Assembly: GCA_002748835.1 (NCBI GenBank)
Contig: PDTL01000026.1
Location: 1-64,000, forward strand
Direction of reading: 5' to 3'
Origin: Deltaproteobacteria bacterium
Lineage (GTDB): Bacteria; Desulfobacterota; Desulfobacteria; Desulfobacterales; GCA-2748835
Length of the DNA: 64,000 nucleotides
The notes under the pieces are model-generated. The model searched no databases, had not been told where the DNA came from, and worked only from the letters and a program-made list of their open reading frames with translations. A program made the translations under genes and the position numbers. Every line of letters begins with the position of its first letter. Position 1 is the stretch's first letter. Positions 21,927 through 30,555 of the stretch are shown here, in pieces.

Positions 21927-23291
21927 GTGGACCTGTTTTCCTATGCGGAGCATGACACGGATCCTAGGCGTTCGCCGCTGGCAGACCGCCTGCGTCCCGA
22001 GTCCCTTGCGGATTACGAGGGCCAGGACACTGCCGTGGGGGATGGCTCCCTGATCCGGAATGCGATTGAGGCGGATCATCCGTTTTCCATGATCCTCTGG
22101 GGGCCGCCGGGGTGCGGGAAAACCACCCTGGCCAAGATCATGGCAAAAGAGACCGCCTCGCATTTTGTAGAAATATCTGCGGTCTTATCCGGGGTCGGGG
22201 ATATCCGGAATGTGATTGATGCCGCCCGCAAGCAGCGCCGGCTGCATCAGAGGCAAACCCTTTTGTTTGTCGATGAAATTCACCGGTTCAACAAGGCCCA
22301 GCAGGACGCGTTTCTGCACCATGTGGAGAGCGGGCTGATCACGCTCATCGGTGCTACCACGGAGAATCCCTCCTTTGAAGTCATTCCAGCCCTCTTATCC
22401 CGGTGCCGCGTCATTCAGCTGGTGGCGCCGGACGCAGCCGCCATGAACCGGATTCTGGACAGAGCGCTCGCCGATGAGCACAAGGGGCTGGGGGCACTCC
22501 GGCTGTCTGTTTCAACTGAGGCCCGGATGCATCTGATCCATCAGGCGGACGGGGATGTGCGCATGCTGCTCAACAACCTCGAGGCAGCCGCGTTCATGGC
22601 ACTGAAAAAACGGCCGCCTGGTGCGGATGGAGCGCGGGAGATCGCCCTTGATCTGGTCGAACAGACGCTTCAGAAAAAAGCACTGCATTACGACAAAAGC
22701 GGTGAAGAACACTATAATCTGATTTCCGCGTTTCACAAAAGCCTGCGCGGCAGTGATCCGGACGGTGCCCTCTACTGGATGGAGCGGATGCTTGCCGGCG
22801 GTGAAGACCCGCTTTACATTGCCCGCCGCATGGTGCGGTTCGCATCCGAAGATGTGGGCAATGCCGATCCGCACGCCCTGACCATGGCCCTGAATGCCGT
22901 GGAAGCGTTTCGTCTCCTTGGCCATCCAGAGGGTGAACTGGCCCTTTCTCAGGCCGTCGTCTATCTGGCCACCGCGCCCAAGAGCAATGCCGTGTATGCG
23001 GCCACTCAATCGGTACGGCAGTTTGTTGCATCCACAGGCTACCTGCCAGTCCCCCTGCATATCCGGAACGCGCCCACGGGCCTGATGCAGGACATGGGAT
23101 ACGGCGAGGGGTACCGGTATGCCCATGATTATGAAGGCGGGTACGCGCCCCAGGATTATCTGCCTGACGGTCATGAAACAAAACGGTTTTATTTTCCGGT
23201 GGACCGGGGCTACGAGCAGGCCATTGGCAGGCGGCTCAGCCAGTGGCTGGAATGTCGCAGGCGGTCAAGAAAAGCGGCAGGGCGGTCGTGA
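21927..23291 (+). CDS. rarA: replication-associated recombination protein A (RarA/MgsA-type AAA+ ATPase)
   Basis: [66 protein letters not shown]-type C-terminal region. Confidence 0.93.
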
Positions 23292-23506
23292 CCCGTAAAC
23301 AGCAGGCAGATGCGCGTCATGACATCAGTCAGGAGCGGCTGATGCGGGTTTAGGGATTTCTGTGCCGGCACGGGTGGGCCTGCGCCTTGAGATGGCAGGC
23401 GAAGGCAGGCGTCAGGGACGTGCCGATGCCAGTCGGGATATGATTGCCGACTGCCGGGGGAATGCTGCCGGTATCATGATCCGAGTCTTTTGCGGATTGA
23501 AGTGAA

Positions 23507-23535
23507 TTGACAACCCAGCCCAAGGGGGCTATTGA
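23507..23535 (+). promoter_or_regulatory. putative sigma70-type promoter of LRR copy 1
   Basis: TTGACA (23507) - 17 nt - TATTGA (23530). Confidence 0.6.
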
Positions 23536-23563
23536 TAAATATATATCGTTAAAAGAACTTTCT

Positions 23564-23601
23564 GGGGAGCATAACGCTGACAGACATACGCTCCCCTTTT
23601 T
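23564..23601 (+). promoter_or_regulatory. terminator-like hairpin in the 5' leader of LRR copy 1
   Basis: GGGGAGC (23564-23570) ... GCTCCCC (23590-23596) followed by TTTTT. Confidence 0.6.
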
Positions 23602-23628: not shown

Positions 23629-24291
23629 ATGTTTCGCTTAAATGTTTGTGATTGGTATGGTGTTGACTGTAACAGCGACAGAACTGCTGTTACACGTCTT
23701 GACCTTAATCATAACAGCCTCACAGGTCCAATTCCTGAGTCTATTGGAAAATTAAAAAATCTAGGATATCTTAACCTTGAGAGTAACAGCCTCACAGGTC
23801 CAATCCCTGAGTCTATTGGAAACTTAACAAACCTAAGCGGTCTTGACCTTGAGAGTAACGGCCTCACAGGTCCAATCCCTGAGTCTATTGGAAACTTAAC
23901 AGGTCTAATAGGCCTTTACCTTTTGAATAACAGCCTCACAGGTCCAATTCCTGAGTCGATTGGAAAATTAACAAACCTAATATATCTTCACCTTGACAGT
24001 AACAGCCTCACAGGTCCAATTCCTAATTCTATTGGGAATTTAACAAAATTAAGAATATTCGATCTTGATTCGAACAACCTATCAGGAGTCATTCCCACCA
24101 CCATCACATCGTTGACCTATTTATTAAGTGGAGAATTACGTCTATATGAGAATTGCAATTTAACTACCCCGAATCAAAACGTGATAGACTTTATAGACAG
24201 TAAAAGCGACGGCGGTTATCAGAAAATTCTAGACACAAATGGACATTGCGGCGTCACCCTCAGTCCTATCTATCATTTGTTACTCAATTAA
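23629..24291 (+). CDS. leucine-rich repeat protein, copy 1 (plant-type LTGPIPESIGNLTNL repeats)
   Basis: ATG 23629 preceded by GGAGG (23619-23623); about six 24-aa LRRs; no signal peptide left; ends CGVTLSPIYHLLLN. Confidence 0.8.
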   Translation: MFRLNVCDWYGVDCNSDRTAVTRLDLNHNSLTGPIPESIGKLKNLGYLNLESNSLTGPIPESIGNLTNLSGLDLESNGLTGPIPESIGNLTGLIGLYLLNNSLTGPIPESIGKLTNLIYLHLDSNSLTGPIPNSIGNLTKLRIFDLDSNNLSGVIPTTITSLTYLLSGELRLYENCNLTTPNQNVIDFIDSKSDGGYQKILDTNGHCGVTLSPIYHLLLN

Positions 24292-24305
24292 AATATGGGA
24301 AGAAA

Positions 24306-24335
24306 AAAGCCGGCAGACACGCGTCTCCCGGCTTT
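24306..24335 (+). terminator. hairpin after LRR copy 1
   Basis: AAAGCCGG-c-AGAC-acgc-GTCT-c-CCGGCTTT; repeated after copies 2 and 3. Confidence 0.5.
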
Positions 24336-24611
24336 CAGCATTAGGGGTCAAGAAAAGGGGCAGGGCGGTCGTGACCCGTAAACAGCAGGCAGATGCGCGT
24401 CATGGCATCACTCAGGAGCGGCTGATGCGGGTTCAGGGATTTCTGTGCCGGCACCCGCTCACCGATGGAGATCCGCTGAATGGACGGGTGACGGAACGGG
24501 TGGGCCTGCGCCTTGAGATGGCAGGCGAAGGCAGGCGTCAGGGACGTGCCGATGCCTGCCGGGGGAATGCTGCCGGTATCATGATCCGAGTCCTTTGCGG
24601 ATTGAAATGAA

Positions 24612-24640
24612 TTGACAACCCAGCCCAAGGGGGCTATTTA
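24612..24640 (+). promoter_or_regulatory. putative sigma70-type promoter of LRR copy 2
   Basis: TTGACA - 17 nt - TATTTA. Confidence 0.65.
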
Positions 24641-24668
24641 TAACTGAATATCGTTAAAAGAACTTTCT

Positions 24669-24706
24669 GGGGAGCATAACGCTGACAGACATACGCTCCC
24701 CTTTTT
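24669..24706 (+). promoter_or_regulatory. terminator-like hairpin in the 5' leader of LRR copy 2
   Basis: GGGGAGC (24669-24675) ... GCTCCCC (24695-24701) TTTTT. Confidence 0.6.
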
Positions 24707-24733
24707 CTGGTAACGCTTCTTATGGAGGCTGAT

Positions 24734-25474
24734 ATGTTTCGCTTAACGGCACTTGTCGATCTCTACAATGCGACCCATGGTGTTCAGTGGGAGAGTCAAG
24801 ACAATTGGAAAGTGCCAGGCACGCATGTTTGTGATTGGTATGGTGTTACCTGTAACAGCGACAGCACTGCTGTTATAGCCCTGGAGCTTCCTGAAAACAA
24901 TCTCACAGGTGACATGCCTGAGTCTATTGGAAACTTAACAAATCTAACAGGTCTTGACCTTCAAGATAACAGCCTCACAGGTCCAATTCCTGAGTCTATT
25001 GGAAACTTAACAAATCTAACAGAGCTTTCCCTTTGGATTAACAGCCTCACAGGCCCAATTCCTGAGTCTATTGGAGACTTAACAAATCTAACATCTCTTG
25101 ACCTTGGCTGGAACAGCCTTACAGGTCCAATTCCTGAGTCTGTTGGAAAATTAACAAATCTAACATATCTTTACCTTGATAGGAACAGCCTCACAGGTCC
25201 AATTCCTGAGCCTATTGGGAATTTAACAAAATTAGATGGACTCTATCTTGATTCGAACAACCTATCAGGAGTCATTCCCACCACCATCACATCGTTGACC
25301 TATTTAGTAAGTGGAGAATTAACTCTATATGAGAATTGTAATTTAACTGCCCCGAATCAAAACGTGATAGACTTTATAAACAGTAAAGGCAACGGCGGTT
25401 ATCAGAAAATTCTAGACACAAATGGACATTGCGGCGTCACCCTCAGTCCTATCTATCATTTGTTACTCAATTAA
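24734..25474 (+). CDS. leucine-rich repeat protein, copy 2
   Basis: GGAGG-spaced ATG 24734; LRRNT-like cap (ALVDLYNATHGVQWESQDNWKVPGTHVCDWYGVTCNSD) plus about six LRRs; signal peptide absent. Confidence 0.82.
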   Translation: MFRLTALVDLYNATHGVQWESQDNWKVPGTHVCDWYGVTCNSDSTAVIALELPENNLTGDMPESIGNLTNLTGLDLQDNSLTGPIPESIGNLTNLTELSLWINSLTGPIPESIGDLTNLTSLDLGWNSLTGPIPESVGKLTNLTYLYLDRNSLTGPIPEPIGNLTKLDGLYLDSNNLSGVIPTTITSLTYLVSGELTLYENCNLTAPNQNVIDFINSKGNGGYQKILDTNGHCGVTLSPIYHLLLN

Positions 25475-25569
25475 CATGGCGACGCAGTGATCGCTTCGAT
25501 TGTTGAGTCTCGTGTGCGGATTTCAACCGCATCGCATGAATGATTCCAGTTTGCGCGTATGGGAAGAAA

Positions 25570-25599
25570 AAAGCCGGCAGACAAGCGTCTCCCGGCTTT
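25570..25599 (+). terminator. hairpin after LRR copy 2
   Basis: AAAGCCGGcAGACaagcGTCTcCCGGCTTT. Confidence 0.5.
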
Positions 25600-25616
25600 C
25601 AGCATTTAGAGATAAG

Positions 25617-25660
25617 GGAGATAAGGGGACAGTCAAATGGAGATAAGGGGACAGTCAAAT
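25617..25660. repeat. perfect 22-bp tandem repeat (x2)
   Basis: ggagataaggggacagtcaaat at 25617-25638 and 25639-25660; followed by AAATAAT-ac-ATTATTT (25657-25672). Confidence 0.85.
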
Positions 25661-25737
25661 AATACATTATTTCTTGTTGAAAATCGTGAACCTTTGATTT
25701 CCAAATGTGGCTACCCTGGCACACAAACACAAATGAA

Positions 25738-25766
25738 TTGACAACCCAGCCCAATGGGGCTATTTA
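25738..25766 (+). promoter_or_regulatory. putative sigma70-type promoter of LRR copy 3
   Basis: TTGACA - 17 nt - TATTTA. Confidence 0.6.
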
Positions 25767-25877
25767 TAAATGCATATAAATGCATATAAATGTATATCGT
25801 TAAAAGGACTTTCTGGGGAGCATAACGCTGACAGACCTATGATCCCTTTTTCTGGTAACGCTTTCATGGAGGCTGAT

Positions 25878-26583
25878 ATGTTTCGCTTGACTGTGTTGGT
25901 TTCAGGTTTACTGTTTGCATTGTGTGGTAATGCGTTTGGCGATTTAGCGACTGACAGAGCGGCGCTTGTCGATCTCTACGATGCGACCCATGGTGATCAG
26001 TGATCTCACAAGCTCAATTCCTAATTCTATTGGAAACTTAACAAATCTAACAATTCTTTTTCTTTACTATAATAACCTCACAGGTCCAATCCCTGAGTCT
26101 ATTGGAGATTTAACAAATCTAACAGATCTTAGGCTTTACGGTAACAGCCTCACAGGACCAATTCCTGAGTCTATTGGAAACTTAACAAATCTAACCGATC
26201 TTTTCCTTTGGAAAAACAGCCTCACAGGTCCAATCCCTGCGTCTATTGGAAACTTAACAAATCTAAAATGGCTTTGGCTTAATCGTAACAGCCTCACAGG
26301 ACCAATTCCTGAGTCTATTGGGAATTTAACAAAATTAAAAAGCTTCCATCTTTATACGAACAGCCTATCAGGCGTCATTCCCACCACCATCACAGCGTTG
26401 ACCGATTTAAATAGTGGAAGCTTAGGTCTATATGAGAATTGCAATTTAACTACCTCGAATCAAAGCGCGATAGCCTTTATCAATAGTAAAGCCACCGGCG
26501 GTTATCAAAAAATTCTAGACACAAATGGACATTGCGTCGTCACCGTCACCCTCAGTCCTATTTATCATTTGTTACTCAATTAA
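25878..26583 (+). pseudogene. leucine-rich repeat protein, copy 3: signal peptide followed by premature stop and frameshifted LRR body
   Basis: MFRLTVLVSGLLFALCGNAFGDLATDRAALVDLYDATHGDQ* (25878-26003), then LRR body ORF 25966-26583 in another frame with only a TTG start and no clear SD. Confidence 0.7.
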
Positions 26584-26678
26584 AAGGACGACGCAGTGAT
26601 CGCTTTGATTGTTGATTTTCGTGTGCGGATTTCAACCGCATCTCATGAATGATTCCAGTTTGCGCGTATGGAAAGCAA

Positions 26679-26708
26679 AAAGCCGGCAGACAAGCGTCTC
26701 CCGGCTTT
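26679..26708 (+). terminator. hairpin after LRR copy 3
   Basis: AAAGCCGGcAGACaagcGTCTcCCGGCTTT. Confidence 0.5.
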
Positions 26709-26784
26709 CAGCATTAGGGGTCAAGAAAAGCGTCAGGGCGGTCGTGAACCGGAAACAGGGGCCGTCATCTATCACCGGTCAGCG

Positions 26785-29706
26785 TCAATGAGACAGATTA
26801 CGGCTGACCACTTTTTTGAATTCTTCCCCGGAATAGACCGTTTTGGCCCCAGACGATGATGCGGGGCAGGCCTCTGACTGGGAAGCAATGAGCGGTCTGA
26901 ATCCTGTTGAAAACACAATCCCGGAACGGGATGCGTTCAGGGGGATGGAAATGGGCTGGTCATAGAGCAGGTAGGCCCCGAACGCTTCTCCCGCATCACC
27001 AATGTACCCGTCATTATCCAGGTCACTCCCTGCGTAAATCCGGTAGAGCCCGCCTGTCAGCCCGGTGAAATTGAAGGTGTAGGCACCGTCTTCGGGCGCC
27101 TGGTTCTGCTGGGAGACAACCGCATTGGTTTCATCATCCACAAGTAGAATATAGTGATAGGAAGCATTGGAAGCCTTGCTGGCCCTGAAATACTGCAGGG
27201 CCACCGGGATCGTCATCGTTTCAGCAGAACTGGTGATCCGGATACTTGTGGAATGCGCGCCTTCGGAGAGACCGCTCCGGTCTGCGATGACCGTATAAAC
27301 CCCAAGCCCGGTATCTGGATCCGTTGCATTGGATGTCACCTGGAGCCAGGAGTCCTGTGGGGAAACGCTGGAGATGCTTAAGGGCGAAGCACCTGCATTG
27401 GCAAGGGTCAGAAACAGGCGGTCTTCCGTGAGGCCGAAATTGAGGGACGATGGCGACACGCTGAGCCGGGCCGGTGTTTCAAGATCACCGGTGCCTCGGA
27501 GCACCATGAGGGTTTCCGCTGCCCGTTTGCCGTTGATCAGGCCATAGCCGAACAGGGCATCTTTTCCCGGTTCTCCGATATCTTCCGTGAGCCGGCCGTC
27601 TTGCAGGAGCTCATCTGCGAGCGCCGGTGTCAGATTAGGATACCCCGCTTTCATCAGGGCGAAAAAACCTGTGACATGCGGGGCTGCCATGGAGGTGCCC
27701 TGCTCAAAGGTGTAGACATGCTGGATAGACCCGGTGCTGTCGTCCCCGGCGGTGCTGAGGATTCCGTCTCCATATCCGTCACCGTTCACATCTGTGGCGG
27801 TCACTCCTCCGGGAGCGGCCACATCTATCCAGGATCCGTAATTGGAGTAAAAGGCAGATGCTTTCTGCAGGGTAACGGCAGATACGGCGGTCACGCCTGG
27901 ATAGGCAGCTGGATATGCCTGGATCCGTGTGGCTTCGTTTCCGGCAGCGGCCACCACATGGATACCAAGGCTTCGGATCTGCTCGTAAAGGGCGGCTTCG
28001 GACTCCGTATAGCCGGCGCCACCCAGGCTCATATTGATGATATCCGCAGGCGGATCCAGGATCCGTCCGGAGTCATTGGAGAGTCCCGCCGCATAACGGA
28101 CCGCCTGAATGATGTCATAGGTATATCCTCCCTCTTTTCCGAGTACCCGCAGGGGGATGAGGGTGGCTGACGGTGCCACGCCGGCAATGCCGGTGCTGTT
28201 TCCCGTCACACCAGCAATGGTGCCGGCCACATGGGTGCCGTGAAAGCTGCTATTCCCGTTGATGCTCTGGTCTCCGGGGTCTGACGGGTCCGCATCTATG
28301 CCATCGCCGTCAAGGGCGTTTTCCGGATCGCTGATGAAATCATATCCTGCCGTCAGCTGTCCGGCAAGGTCCGGGTGGTCGGTCAGCACGCCGGTATCAA
28401 TGACCGCGCACCGGACACCAGACCCGTCCGTGAGTGACCAGAGCGAGGAGAGCTGGATCATGTCATAGTGCCACTGGTAGGTGTAGAGCGGATCATCCGG
28501 AGCCACTGCACAGGGTTTGCGGATGAAGTTGGGGCTTGCATAGCGGACACGGGGAGAGTTGTTGAGTGATTTTACGGCGTACAGGAGCGAGAGCTTGCGT
28601 GCCTGAAGCGGCGCCAGCGCGCATGGAAACGCGGTGATCAGGTCCGTGTTTTCAGTGTCTGACAGGTATGCCCGGGCGGTTTGCCTTTGTTTAGCGCCAT
28701 CCGTACGGTACAGAAGGGTCGGGCACCCAGGCGTGGATGCGCCTTTCAGCTGCCACCCGGTCGGAATCGCGGTGAAGGTACTGGCGGTTGCCGCATCGGT
28801 TTCGGCCTGGCTGCTTTCATCGGTATATTCGGTAATGATGGTATCTGGATCAAAGGCGGTGTTGAGGGTAGGTCCTGTTTTTTTAGCAAGGCCGGCATCC
28901 CCGATAAACCGGCTGATGATGAGGTTGTAGGCAGATGCACCGCTGTACGGATGTACGGCAATGTAAAAGGTGCCGGCTGCCGGTGCATCCAGAACTTCAG
29001 CATCGGTTTCTCCGACCGCGCCATCGACCAGGTTTTCGTCCGCATCGAAAATAAACAGGTCCAGATCCGCATGAGGATCGGCTATGATTAGCTGGATCAC
29101 TTCATCGCCAGTAAAGTCCACGGCAAAGAAATCAAAGATATCTCCGGACAGAAACGAGCTCCCCTGGGACCCGTTGAGCGGCTGATTGACATACCCGCCC
29201 AGCACCACCGGACAGCTGATCGTCTGGGCGTTACGAATTGTATTGTTGGTCGTGTCGGCCACATTGGGATCATTGACATCGGCGTCCGTGAGTGTGGCAC
29301 CGGGTATCTGTACAGTGCCGCTCAGGGAGAGGTCTCTGGCCGGGGGCGTCACCTGAATGGACAGGGTCGCGGTGCCTGAGGATCCTGCTGCATCCGTGAT
29401 CGTGAGCGTTGCATCGTAGGTACCGGACTGGGTGTAAATATGACCGGTTGAGACGTCTACGGCAGAGGTGCCGTCTCCGAAATTCCATGCGTAGGAGAAC
29501 GGTTCACGCCATCCGGTCTCTTGCGCGTCGGTTGCGTCAAAGGTAACAGACAGCGGTGCGGCACCGGACGCCGGAGAAGCCGTAAACCGGATGGCAGAAG
29601 GGGGAGGGCCGTCGTTATCAGAAGCATCACTTCCACCGCCGCCACCGCAGCTGATGCAGAAGAGAAGCAGGACAAGGACGAAACAACAGGAAATGGCATG
29701 CCGCAT
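26785..29706 (-). CDS. S8 (subtilisin-like) serine protease lipoprotein with PKD and pre-peptidase-like domains
   Basis: catalytic VIDTGVLTDHPDL / HGTHVAGTIAG / GTSMAAPHVTGF; PKD YAWNFGDGTS; lipobox-like LLFCISCGGGGG; start ATG 29706. Confidence 0.9.
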   Translation of the reverse strand: MRHAISCCFVLVLLLFCISCGGGGGSDASDNDGPPPSAIRFTASPASGAAPLSVTFDATDAQETGWREPFSYAWNFGDGTSAVDVSTGHIYTQSGTYDATLTITDAAGSSGTATLSIQVTPPARDLSLSGTVQIPGATLTDADVNDPNVADTTNNTIRNAQTISCPVVLGGYVNQPLNGSQGSSFLSGDIFDFFAVDFTGDEVIQLIIADPHADLDLFIFDADENLVDGAVGETDAEVLDAPAAGTFYIAVHPYSGASAYNLIISRFIGDAGLAKKTGPTLNTAFDPDTIITEYTDESSQAETDAATASTFTAIPTGWQLKGASTPGCPTLLYRTDGAKQRQTARAYLSDTENTDLITAFPCALAPLQARKLSLLYAVKSLNNSPRVRYASPNFIRKPCAVAPDDPLYTYQWHYDMIQLSSLWSLTDGSGVRCAVIDTGVLTDHPDLAGQLTAGYDFISDPENALDGDGIDADPSDPGDQSINGNSSFHGTHVAGTIAGVTGNSTGIAGVAPSATLIPLRVLGKEGGYTYDIIQAVRYAAGLSNDSGRILDPPADIINMSLGGAGYTESEAALYEQIRSLGIHVVAAAGNEATRIQAYPAAYPGVTAVSAVTLQKASAFYSNYGSWIDVAAPGGVTATDVNGDGYGDGILSTAGDDSTGSIQHVYTFEQGTSMAAPHVTGFFALMKAGYPNLTPALADELLQDGRLTEDIGEPGKDALFGYGLINGKRAAETLMVLRGTGDLETPARLSVSPSSLNFGLTEDRLFLTLANAGASPLSISSVSPQDSWLQVTSNATDPDTGLGVYTVIADRSGLSEGAHSTSIRITSSAETMTIPVALQYFRASKASNASYHYILLVDDETNAVVSQQNQAPEDGAYTFNFTGLTGGLYRIYAGSDLDNDGYIGDAGEAFGAYLLYDQPISIPLNASRSGIVFSTGFRPLIASQSEACPASSSGAKTVYSGEEFKKVVSRNLSH

Positions 29707-29766
29707 GGTGCCTCCTTGTTGAAAAGTGGTTTTTTTAACAATAAATACAATGCTCAAGGAACTGTG

Positions 29767-30555
29767 TCAAGGCGTTATGGTGAACTGCTCCCGGCGGCTG
29801 CCTGTGGGTATGGGTGACGGCGGCCGGGTGGGATAGGTCCATTCGGTAACCCGCAGGGTTCCGGATGTATCGAGTTGCAGGAGGCTTGCAGAACGGGTTC
29901 CGTAACAGTCGCTCCGGATAAATATCGGGCTGAGGATTTGTTCCCATTCAAGGCCCATTCCGGTGTCGGGCAGTGCCGCGTCTTCGGGCCGGGTCTCATC
30001 ACAGAGCAGGGTCTGGATGCGTGCTTCTGAAATCCTGCCGGTGGCAGCTTCTCTTTGTAGCTGCGCTGTGGCGCGGGTGACTTTTGGCCACGGTGTATCC
30101 AGCAGGTGGTTGCACAGGCCGTGGACACCGGGGGAGACGGGCATCGGGCGGTCTGACTGGTTGGAGTAGAACCACAGCCGTTCCGGGGAACGGATATCGT
30201 CAGAGACCAGCAGGTTAAATGGGTTGTAGGTGGCGGCAGTGGCTGCCAGCTGATCGAGATACGATTTACCGGAGCCGGATGCTTCGAGGAACCGTCGGAC
30301 CAGATGTCCCCGGGAGGGGGCGCCCGTCTTTAGTAAATGGGGCGCGCGGAAATTGGTCAGGGCGGCAAACCGGCCGGAACGGGTGATTCCCATCCAGGTG
30401 CCCCTGTCCTTTAGATCCCGCCCGGCGAGCAGCGACGGGTTGTCTTCCCAGAAGTGAAGCGGCGCTGAAGGCCGTTGGTAGCATTCGTCCCGGTTTGCGG
30501 CCAGAATGAAGGGGATGTCTGGATGAAGGTGGTAGCCAAATAAAATCAAACACAT
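29767..30555 (-). CDS. NRDE (TANGO2-like) family protein
   Basis: MCLILFGYHLHPDIPFILAANRDECYQRPS ... GRDLKDRGTWMGITRSGRFAALTNFR. Confidence 0.88.
   Translation of the reverse strand: MCLILFGYHLHPDIPFILAANRDECYQRPSAPLHFWEDNPSLLAGRDLKDRGTWMGITRSGRFAALTNFRAPHLLKTGAPSRGHLVRRFLEASGSGKSYLDQLAATAATYNPFNLLVSDDIRSPERLWFYSNQSDRPMPVSPGVHGLCNHLLDTPWPKVTRATAQLQREAATGRISEARIQTLLCDETRPEDAALPDTGMGLEWEQILSPIFIRSDCYGTRSASLLQLDTSGTLRVTEWTYPTRPPSPIPTGSRREQFTITP

Follow-up and report, generated by a model that had tools for sequence, protein, structure and literature searches.

A homogenised framework combined with a selected binding face has already been documented in fungal and brown-algal recognition proteins. 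The ROCO genes of brown algae carry LRR exons of 72 bp in which four sites of the concave face are positively selected (Teng et al. 2024, PMC11378527; on the same exons, Zambounis et al. 2012, as cited in PMC11378527). In Podospora, the WD40 repeats of the NWD genes (het-d/het-e) show concerted evolution plus positive selection, and NWD pseudogenes keep their repeats intact, an effect attributed by the authors to exchange with active loci (Paoletti et al. 2007, PMC1805685). A like combination has been proposed for ANK and TPR repeats of fungi, where no LRRs were found (PMC4986451), and in LRR genes of Tetrahymena exons are shuffled by unequal crossing-over (PMC6564038). The literature that we searched held no bacterial LRR precedent for a homogenised framework with a selected face, an absence which is not proof. 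A clear case among bacterial plant-type LRR proteins would offer a simple model, free of introns, for the making of diversity in LRR binding.

The locus described here was found in a window of 64,000 nt (positions 1 to 64,000 of contig PDTL01000026.1, Deltaproteobacteria bacterium), on an 82-kb contig of a 2.43-Mb, 85%-complete assembly. A first-pass annotation had taken positions 23629-26583 for a single array of roughly 16 LRR units. The 72-bp units are indeed present, but they belong to three separate tandem genes (A, B and C), each with promoter, leader and terminator and with spacers between them, which together hold 17 full units plus one truncated unit. The three modules, of about 1.1 kb each, lie between rarA (21927-23291), on the side of module A, and a convergent subtilase/PKD gene on the reverse strand (26785-29757), beyond module C. 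GC content is 39-43% over the LRR genes vs 55-61% outside the cluster, which thus forms a 40%-GC module inside a 57-60%-GC region; this AT-rich module beside rarA was probably acquired horizontally. Elsewhere in the 85%-complete assembly, neither a further LRR gene nor another copy of the module was found.

Modules A and B share the same order of elements, all on the forward strand: spacer, leader (a TTGACA-like box and a hairpin), LRR gene and terminator-like hairpin. Both spacers begin in the last rarA codons or in a copy of those codons. The spacer of A (23264-23503) is repeated before B (24347-24608), where the alignment gives 213 matches and 6 mismatches plus indels, and is found truncated after C, its start being copied at 26667-26758. 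The leader of A (23507-23601), read from the sequence and not flagged by a promoter scan, contains a TTGACA-like box followed by a terminator-like hairpin with a T run, which precedes the ribosome-binding site (23564-23596, -19.4 kcal/mol, z -2.8), and the module closes with a terminator-like hairpin at 24299-24342 (-17.9 kcal/mol, z -4.4). The corresponding hairpins of B are found at 24669-24701 (leader, z -3.1) and 25562-25606 (terminator-like, z -3.5). Module C resembles A and B in leader, gene and terminator and differs in its spacer; its leader hairpin is degraded (25815-25846, z -0.05), and its terminator and the beginning of a truncated spacer copy, the fourth, lie at 26669-26758. The T-run hairpins just 5' of the ribosome-binding sites of A and B could be attenuators. 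A riboswitch was dropped as a candidate, since the leader has no Rfam match above threshold, and an ORF in the spacer (24239-24610), with no Pfam or PHROG match, was rejected as a gene because it looks like repeated spacer.

Gene A (23629-24291) encodes a plant-type LRR protein with six 72-bp units, A1-A6 (23692-24123), and a C-cap tail (24124-24288) that carries a Cys pair and the sequence GGYQKILDTNGHC. Gene B (24734-25474) is the most complete copy, with N-cap, units B1-B6 (24875-25306) and C-cap tail (25307-25471). The original start of gene C (25878-26003), with a signal peptide and the beginning of the N-cap, is separated from an LRR frame (25990-26583) which could start only at an internal ATG (25990) or at a non-ATG codon; this frame holds units C1-C5 (26050-26409), a truncated unit just upstream of them, and a C-cap tail with a 6-nt insertion (26410-26580). 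All three genes are on the forward strand. Pfam models LRR_1 (2.7e-21) and LRR_8 (4.4e-19) match the proteins, and the 17 units follow the plant-type (PS) repeat LxxLxLxxNxLxGxIPxxLGxLxx. The last units A6, B6 and C5 form a separate class of capping unit and differ from the other units at 22-28 of 57 framework bases. In B, the N-cap matches LRRNT_2 at 21.5 bits (cut-off 20.7); no Pfam model matches the C-cap, and the Cys pairs of N-cap (CDWYGVTC) and C-cap (NCNLT...NGHC) were found by eye. The type III effector families XopAE, XopAC and XopL scored 66, 51 and 35 bits against cut-offs of 600, 450 and 500, through the LRR part only. We rejected a phage origin (no relative in viral_contigs; the sole PHROG match, of unknown function, is through the LRRs) and membership of a defence family (no PADLOC match for the LRR protein).

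The predicted structure of B has a mean pLDDT of 71, with the LRR core (residues 71-160) at 88-98 and poorly modelled caps. In this model, the best fold matches are polygalacturonase-inhibiting proteins (PGIP) and plant receptor ectodomains (PGIP 8ikw, E 3.5e-14; 1ogq, E 3.2e-13; also FLS2 and MIK2). These plant proteins share with ours the 24-residue LRR, the Cys N-cap and the overall fold, whereas the array here is shorter and bacterial, and the likeness is one of fold, not evidence of shared function. Predicted strands at residues 77-79, 101-103, 125-127, 149-151 and 173-175 correspond to the x-L-x of successive units, so that, judging from residue numbering, the variable residues would lie on either side of the buried Leu in the concave sheet, where the first-pass annotation had placed them.

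To quantify the divergence of framework and exposed codons we used the 14 non-terminal units, leaving out the capping units A6, B6 and C5. Mean pairwise codon diversity is 0.91 at exposed codons vs 0.26 in the framework (permutation P 4e-5), which confirms the earlier reading of a near-invariant framework with codon changes concentrated at exposed sites. The codons of LxLxxN that had been pointed out are variable, but the variable set is x x L x L x x N and thus extends to the two codons that precede the first Leu of LxL. Exposed codons have a pN of 0.61 (bootstrap 0.53-0.67), and the framework a pS of 0.19 (0.14-0.23) and a pN of 0.07, so that the ratio of exposed pN to framework pS is 3.2 (2.6-4.2); variability is therefore not spread evenly over framework and face, nor does synonymous divergence equal nonsynonymous divergence, either of which had been named as grounds for giving up the idea. 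When neutral change was simulated on the framework tree, with scaling to framework pS, exposed pN came out at 0.16 ± 0.05 with a maximum of 0.38, and none of 500 runs reached the observed 0.608. The contrast is also present between A6 and B6, units locked in position, which differ at 1/57 framework and 6/15 exposed bases (P 2e-4), and between penultimate units (A/C, P 1e-5; B/C, P 2e-5). Since A6 and B6 are position-locked, fast change of exposed codons needs no exchange of units. By sequence comparison, then, the residues of the predicted concave β-strand face differ between nearly all units, beyond neutral change, while the framework is homogenised in DNA, and a diversified binding face is well supported. 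Part of the low framework pS could reflect constraint at the DNA level. Host codon bias is an unlikely source of the synonymous conservation, given that the codons of the units are AT-rich and the region around them has 57-60% GC.

We compared these values with those of other bacterial plant-type LRR arrays, from the same order, from a Desulfobulbaceae MAG (L022) and from a Hymenobacter plasmid (L037). They belong to the same LRR class, and many of the matches span the N-cap too (query residues from 3-9 on), but their open frames are mostly longer and their frameworks are not homogenised: framework pS is 0.44-0.79, exposed pN 0.45-0.69 and the ratio 0.67-1.23. The faces of the relatives are thus equally variable, and what is special here is homogenisation of the framework and not variability of the face. 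A consensus-unit query (E 1e-22) of 396 genomes sampled from the phylum found no comparably homogenised array elsewhere. The proposed combination of homogenised framework and diversified concave face is in this way upheld: it lies far from the neutral expectation and sets the locus apart from all related arrays examined.

How the framework became uniform can be approached from the order of the units. Among inner units, the mean framework difference is the same for units at the same position (4.3), in the same gene (4.2) or elsewhere (4.3), while the last and penultimate units differ from their counterparts by 3.3 and 2.7 framework bases. Between A and B, exposed bases differ at 29/45 in inner units vs 10/30 in end units (P 0.01), and A1 is an inner-type unit, with 2 framework differences from B2 and 9 from B1. 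As judged from these alignments, it is the end units, not the inner ones, that retain positional orthology from gene to gene, a pattern that points to turnover of units by unequal crossing-over or gene conversion. With a single genome, few framework differences and small counts, we can only infer this turnover. Selection and shuffling seem to have acted together. The claim of a recombining array is supported indirectly, and active recombination goes beyond this evidence.

The first-pass annotation had also drawn an analogy to variable lymphocyte receptors. In lampreys these receptors are assembled somatically from flanking cassettes by cytidine deaminases. A diverse LRR concave face is shared with them, but we found no flanking cassettes here, and an operating repertoire of that type is not supported for a locus whose copies have lost signal peptide or frame, in an 85%-complete assembly with no donor cassette or reverse transcriptase. 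While the reasoning of that annotation was largely sound, a working recombining repertoire is more than the evidence carries. Brown-algal ROCO LRR exons and Podospora NWD repeats are the better analogues. The former share the 72-bp unit, the conserved framework and the selected concave sites, and have shuffled units, to which unit turnover here would correspond, but are eukaryotic, with one exon per LRR, and fused to a ROC-COR GTPase, whereas the genes here are bacterial and intron-free and encode small PGIP-like proteins. NWD genes share selected codons on the interaction surface and pseudogenes with intact repeats, and show a concerted evolution of units within and between paralogues that is probable here too; they differ in having WD40 instead of LRR repeats (69 repeats in about ten fungal genes) and an NLR architecture. 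An active LRR locus, the counterpart of those in Podospora, was not found in the 85%-complete assembly.

Every copy has lost signal peptide (judged by eye) or reading frame, through separate deletions, so secretion is a feature that none of them retains. In B exactly 69 nt, corresponding to the signal peptide, have been lost cleanly in frame; in A an in-frame deletion took the signal peptide and the first half of the N-cap; in C the signal peptide, MFRLTVLVSGLLFALCGNAFG, is intact, but it is cut off from the LRRs by a TGA at 26001-26003 that results from a frameshifting deletion. The three deletions (23629-23660, 24734-24760 and 25990-26015) are different, all fall between start codon and first LRR, and by eye their microhomology amounts to 0-1 bp. 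There is no sign of purifying selection in the C-cap tail (7.0 nonsynonymous and 1.0 synonymous changes between A and B; pN ~ pS between A and C), while the LRR arrays of A, B and C are free of stops. Given the loss of signal peptide or frame and a tail without purifying selection, the signature of framework and face may be historical.

We consider it probable that these genes are a secreted PGIP-like family whose framework was homogenised by turnover and whose face was under diversifying selection, and that the copies have since lost secretion. The ancestral product would have been a secreted plant-type LRR binding protein with signal peptide, Cys N-cap, about 6 LRRs and Cys C-cap. Its gene would have been duplicated as a whole module, giving a small tandem family, in which the near-identical 72-bp units may have undergone unequal crossing-over or gene conversion with one another, so that the framework stayed uniform and the units were reassorted. 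By analogy with ROCO LRRs and NWD WD40 repeats, the exposed codons may have been driven by diversifying selection, the targets of binding being protein or surface partners that change. The copies in this strain would later have lost secretion, and are probably non-secreted remnants, or donors for a copy outside the assembly. The pattern suggests a molecular arms race or a partner-matching interaction in the bacterium or in the donor of the genes. A less likely account, though one to be taken seriously, is that the face was diversified elsewhere before horizontal transfer and that the genes are now decaying pseudogenes without selection. Three independent N-terminal lesions, the degraded leader hairpin of C, the pN ~ pS of the C-cap tail, the GC content far below that of the surroundings and IS-like debris between B and C would all fit decay. 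It is harder to reconcile with three LRR frames that are open and stop-free, with A and B deletions that are in frame and with promoters, leaders and terminators retained in A and B; moreover, the exposed codons of A and B differ though their leaders differ at just 4/115 bases, so that the faces diverged at or after the separation of the two copies, or units were exchanged.

Other explanations for a homogenised framework with a secretion-deficient set of copies fare worse than the family with turnover and selection. A simple expansion of repeats in the recent past, with exposed positions loosely constrained and neither recombination nor diversifying selection, could appeal to the concave positions being variable in every LRR array, the relatives included, but neutrality predicts that exposed pN equals framework pS, against what the simulation and the observed value show, and the same contrast appears in the position-locked terminal units; we regard it as improbable. 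The copies are headless or frame-broken while arrays and caps are intact, as the NWD pseudogenes of Podospora likewise keep their repeats through exchange with active loci (PMC1805685), which would suit a role as silent cassettes, donors in the gene conversion of a full-length, expressed copy that lies outside the assembled sequence. No such full-length copy is present in the 85%-complete assembly, however, and each copy has a leader, ribosome-binding site and start codon of its own, unlike typical silent cassettes, which makes this very improbable. It would likewise be a long shot to see in the locus a headless donor bank whose 72-bp units are recombined into an expressed, secreted PGIP-like receptor, changing the binding repertoire of the population. 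A number of LxL codons have C as their third base (GAC, TAC, AAC, CAC, TCC, TTC), as targeted hypermutation by a diversity-generating retroelement might leave them, yet the assembly, at 85% completeness, has no reverse transcriptase (RVT_1), there is no template repeat, and the A-rich stretches of framework that adjoin variable codons (TTAACAAATCTAACA) are unmutated; with no reverse transcriptase and framework adenines untouched, we reject this source as highly unlikely.

The surroundings of the genes offer some further observations. Between B and C, in the region 25617-25720, there is a perfect direct repeat of 22 bp (GGAGATAAGGGGACAGTCAAAT, two copies), and about 54 bp following it recur, at 93% identity, at G000:C34:122372-122425, next to an apparent IS transposase remnant (judged by eye). 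In the promoter and leader of C, 3.3 copies of a 10-bp repeat (TATAAATGCA, 25765-25797), absent in A and B, form a possible slippage site that could alter promoter spacing. Beyond the cluster, the product of the reverse-strand gene at 26785-29757 has a lipobox-like start and PKD and subtilase domains, and is probably a surface protease; beside it, also on the reverse strand, 29767-30555 encodes a full-length protein of the TANGO2 (NRDE) family.
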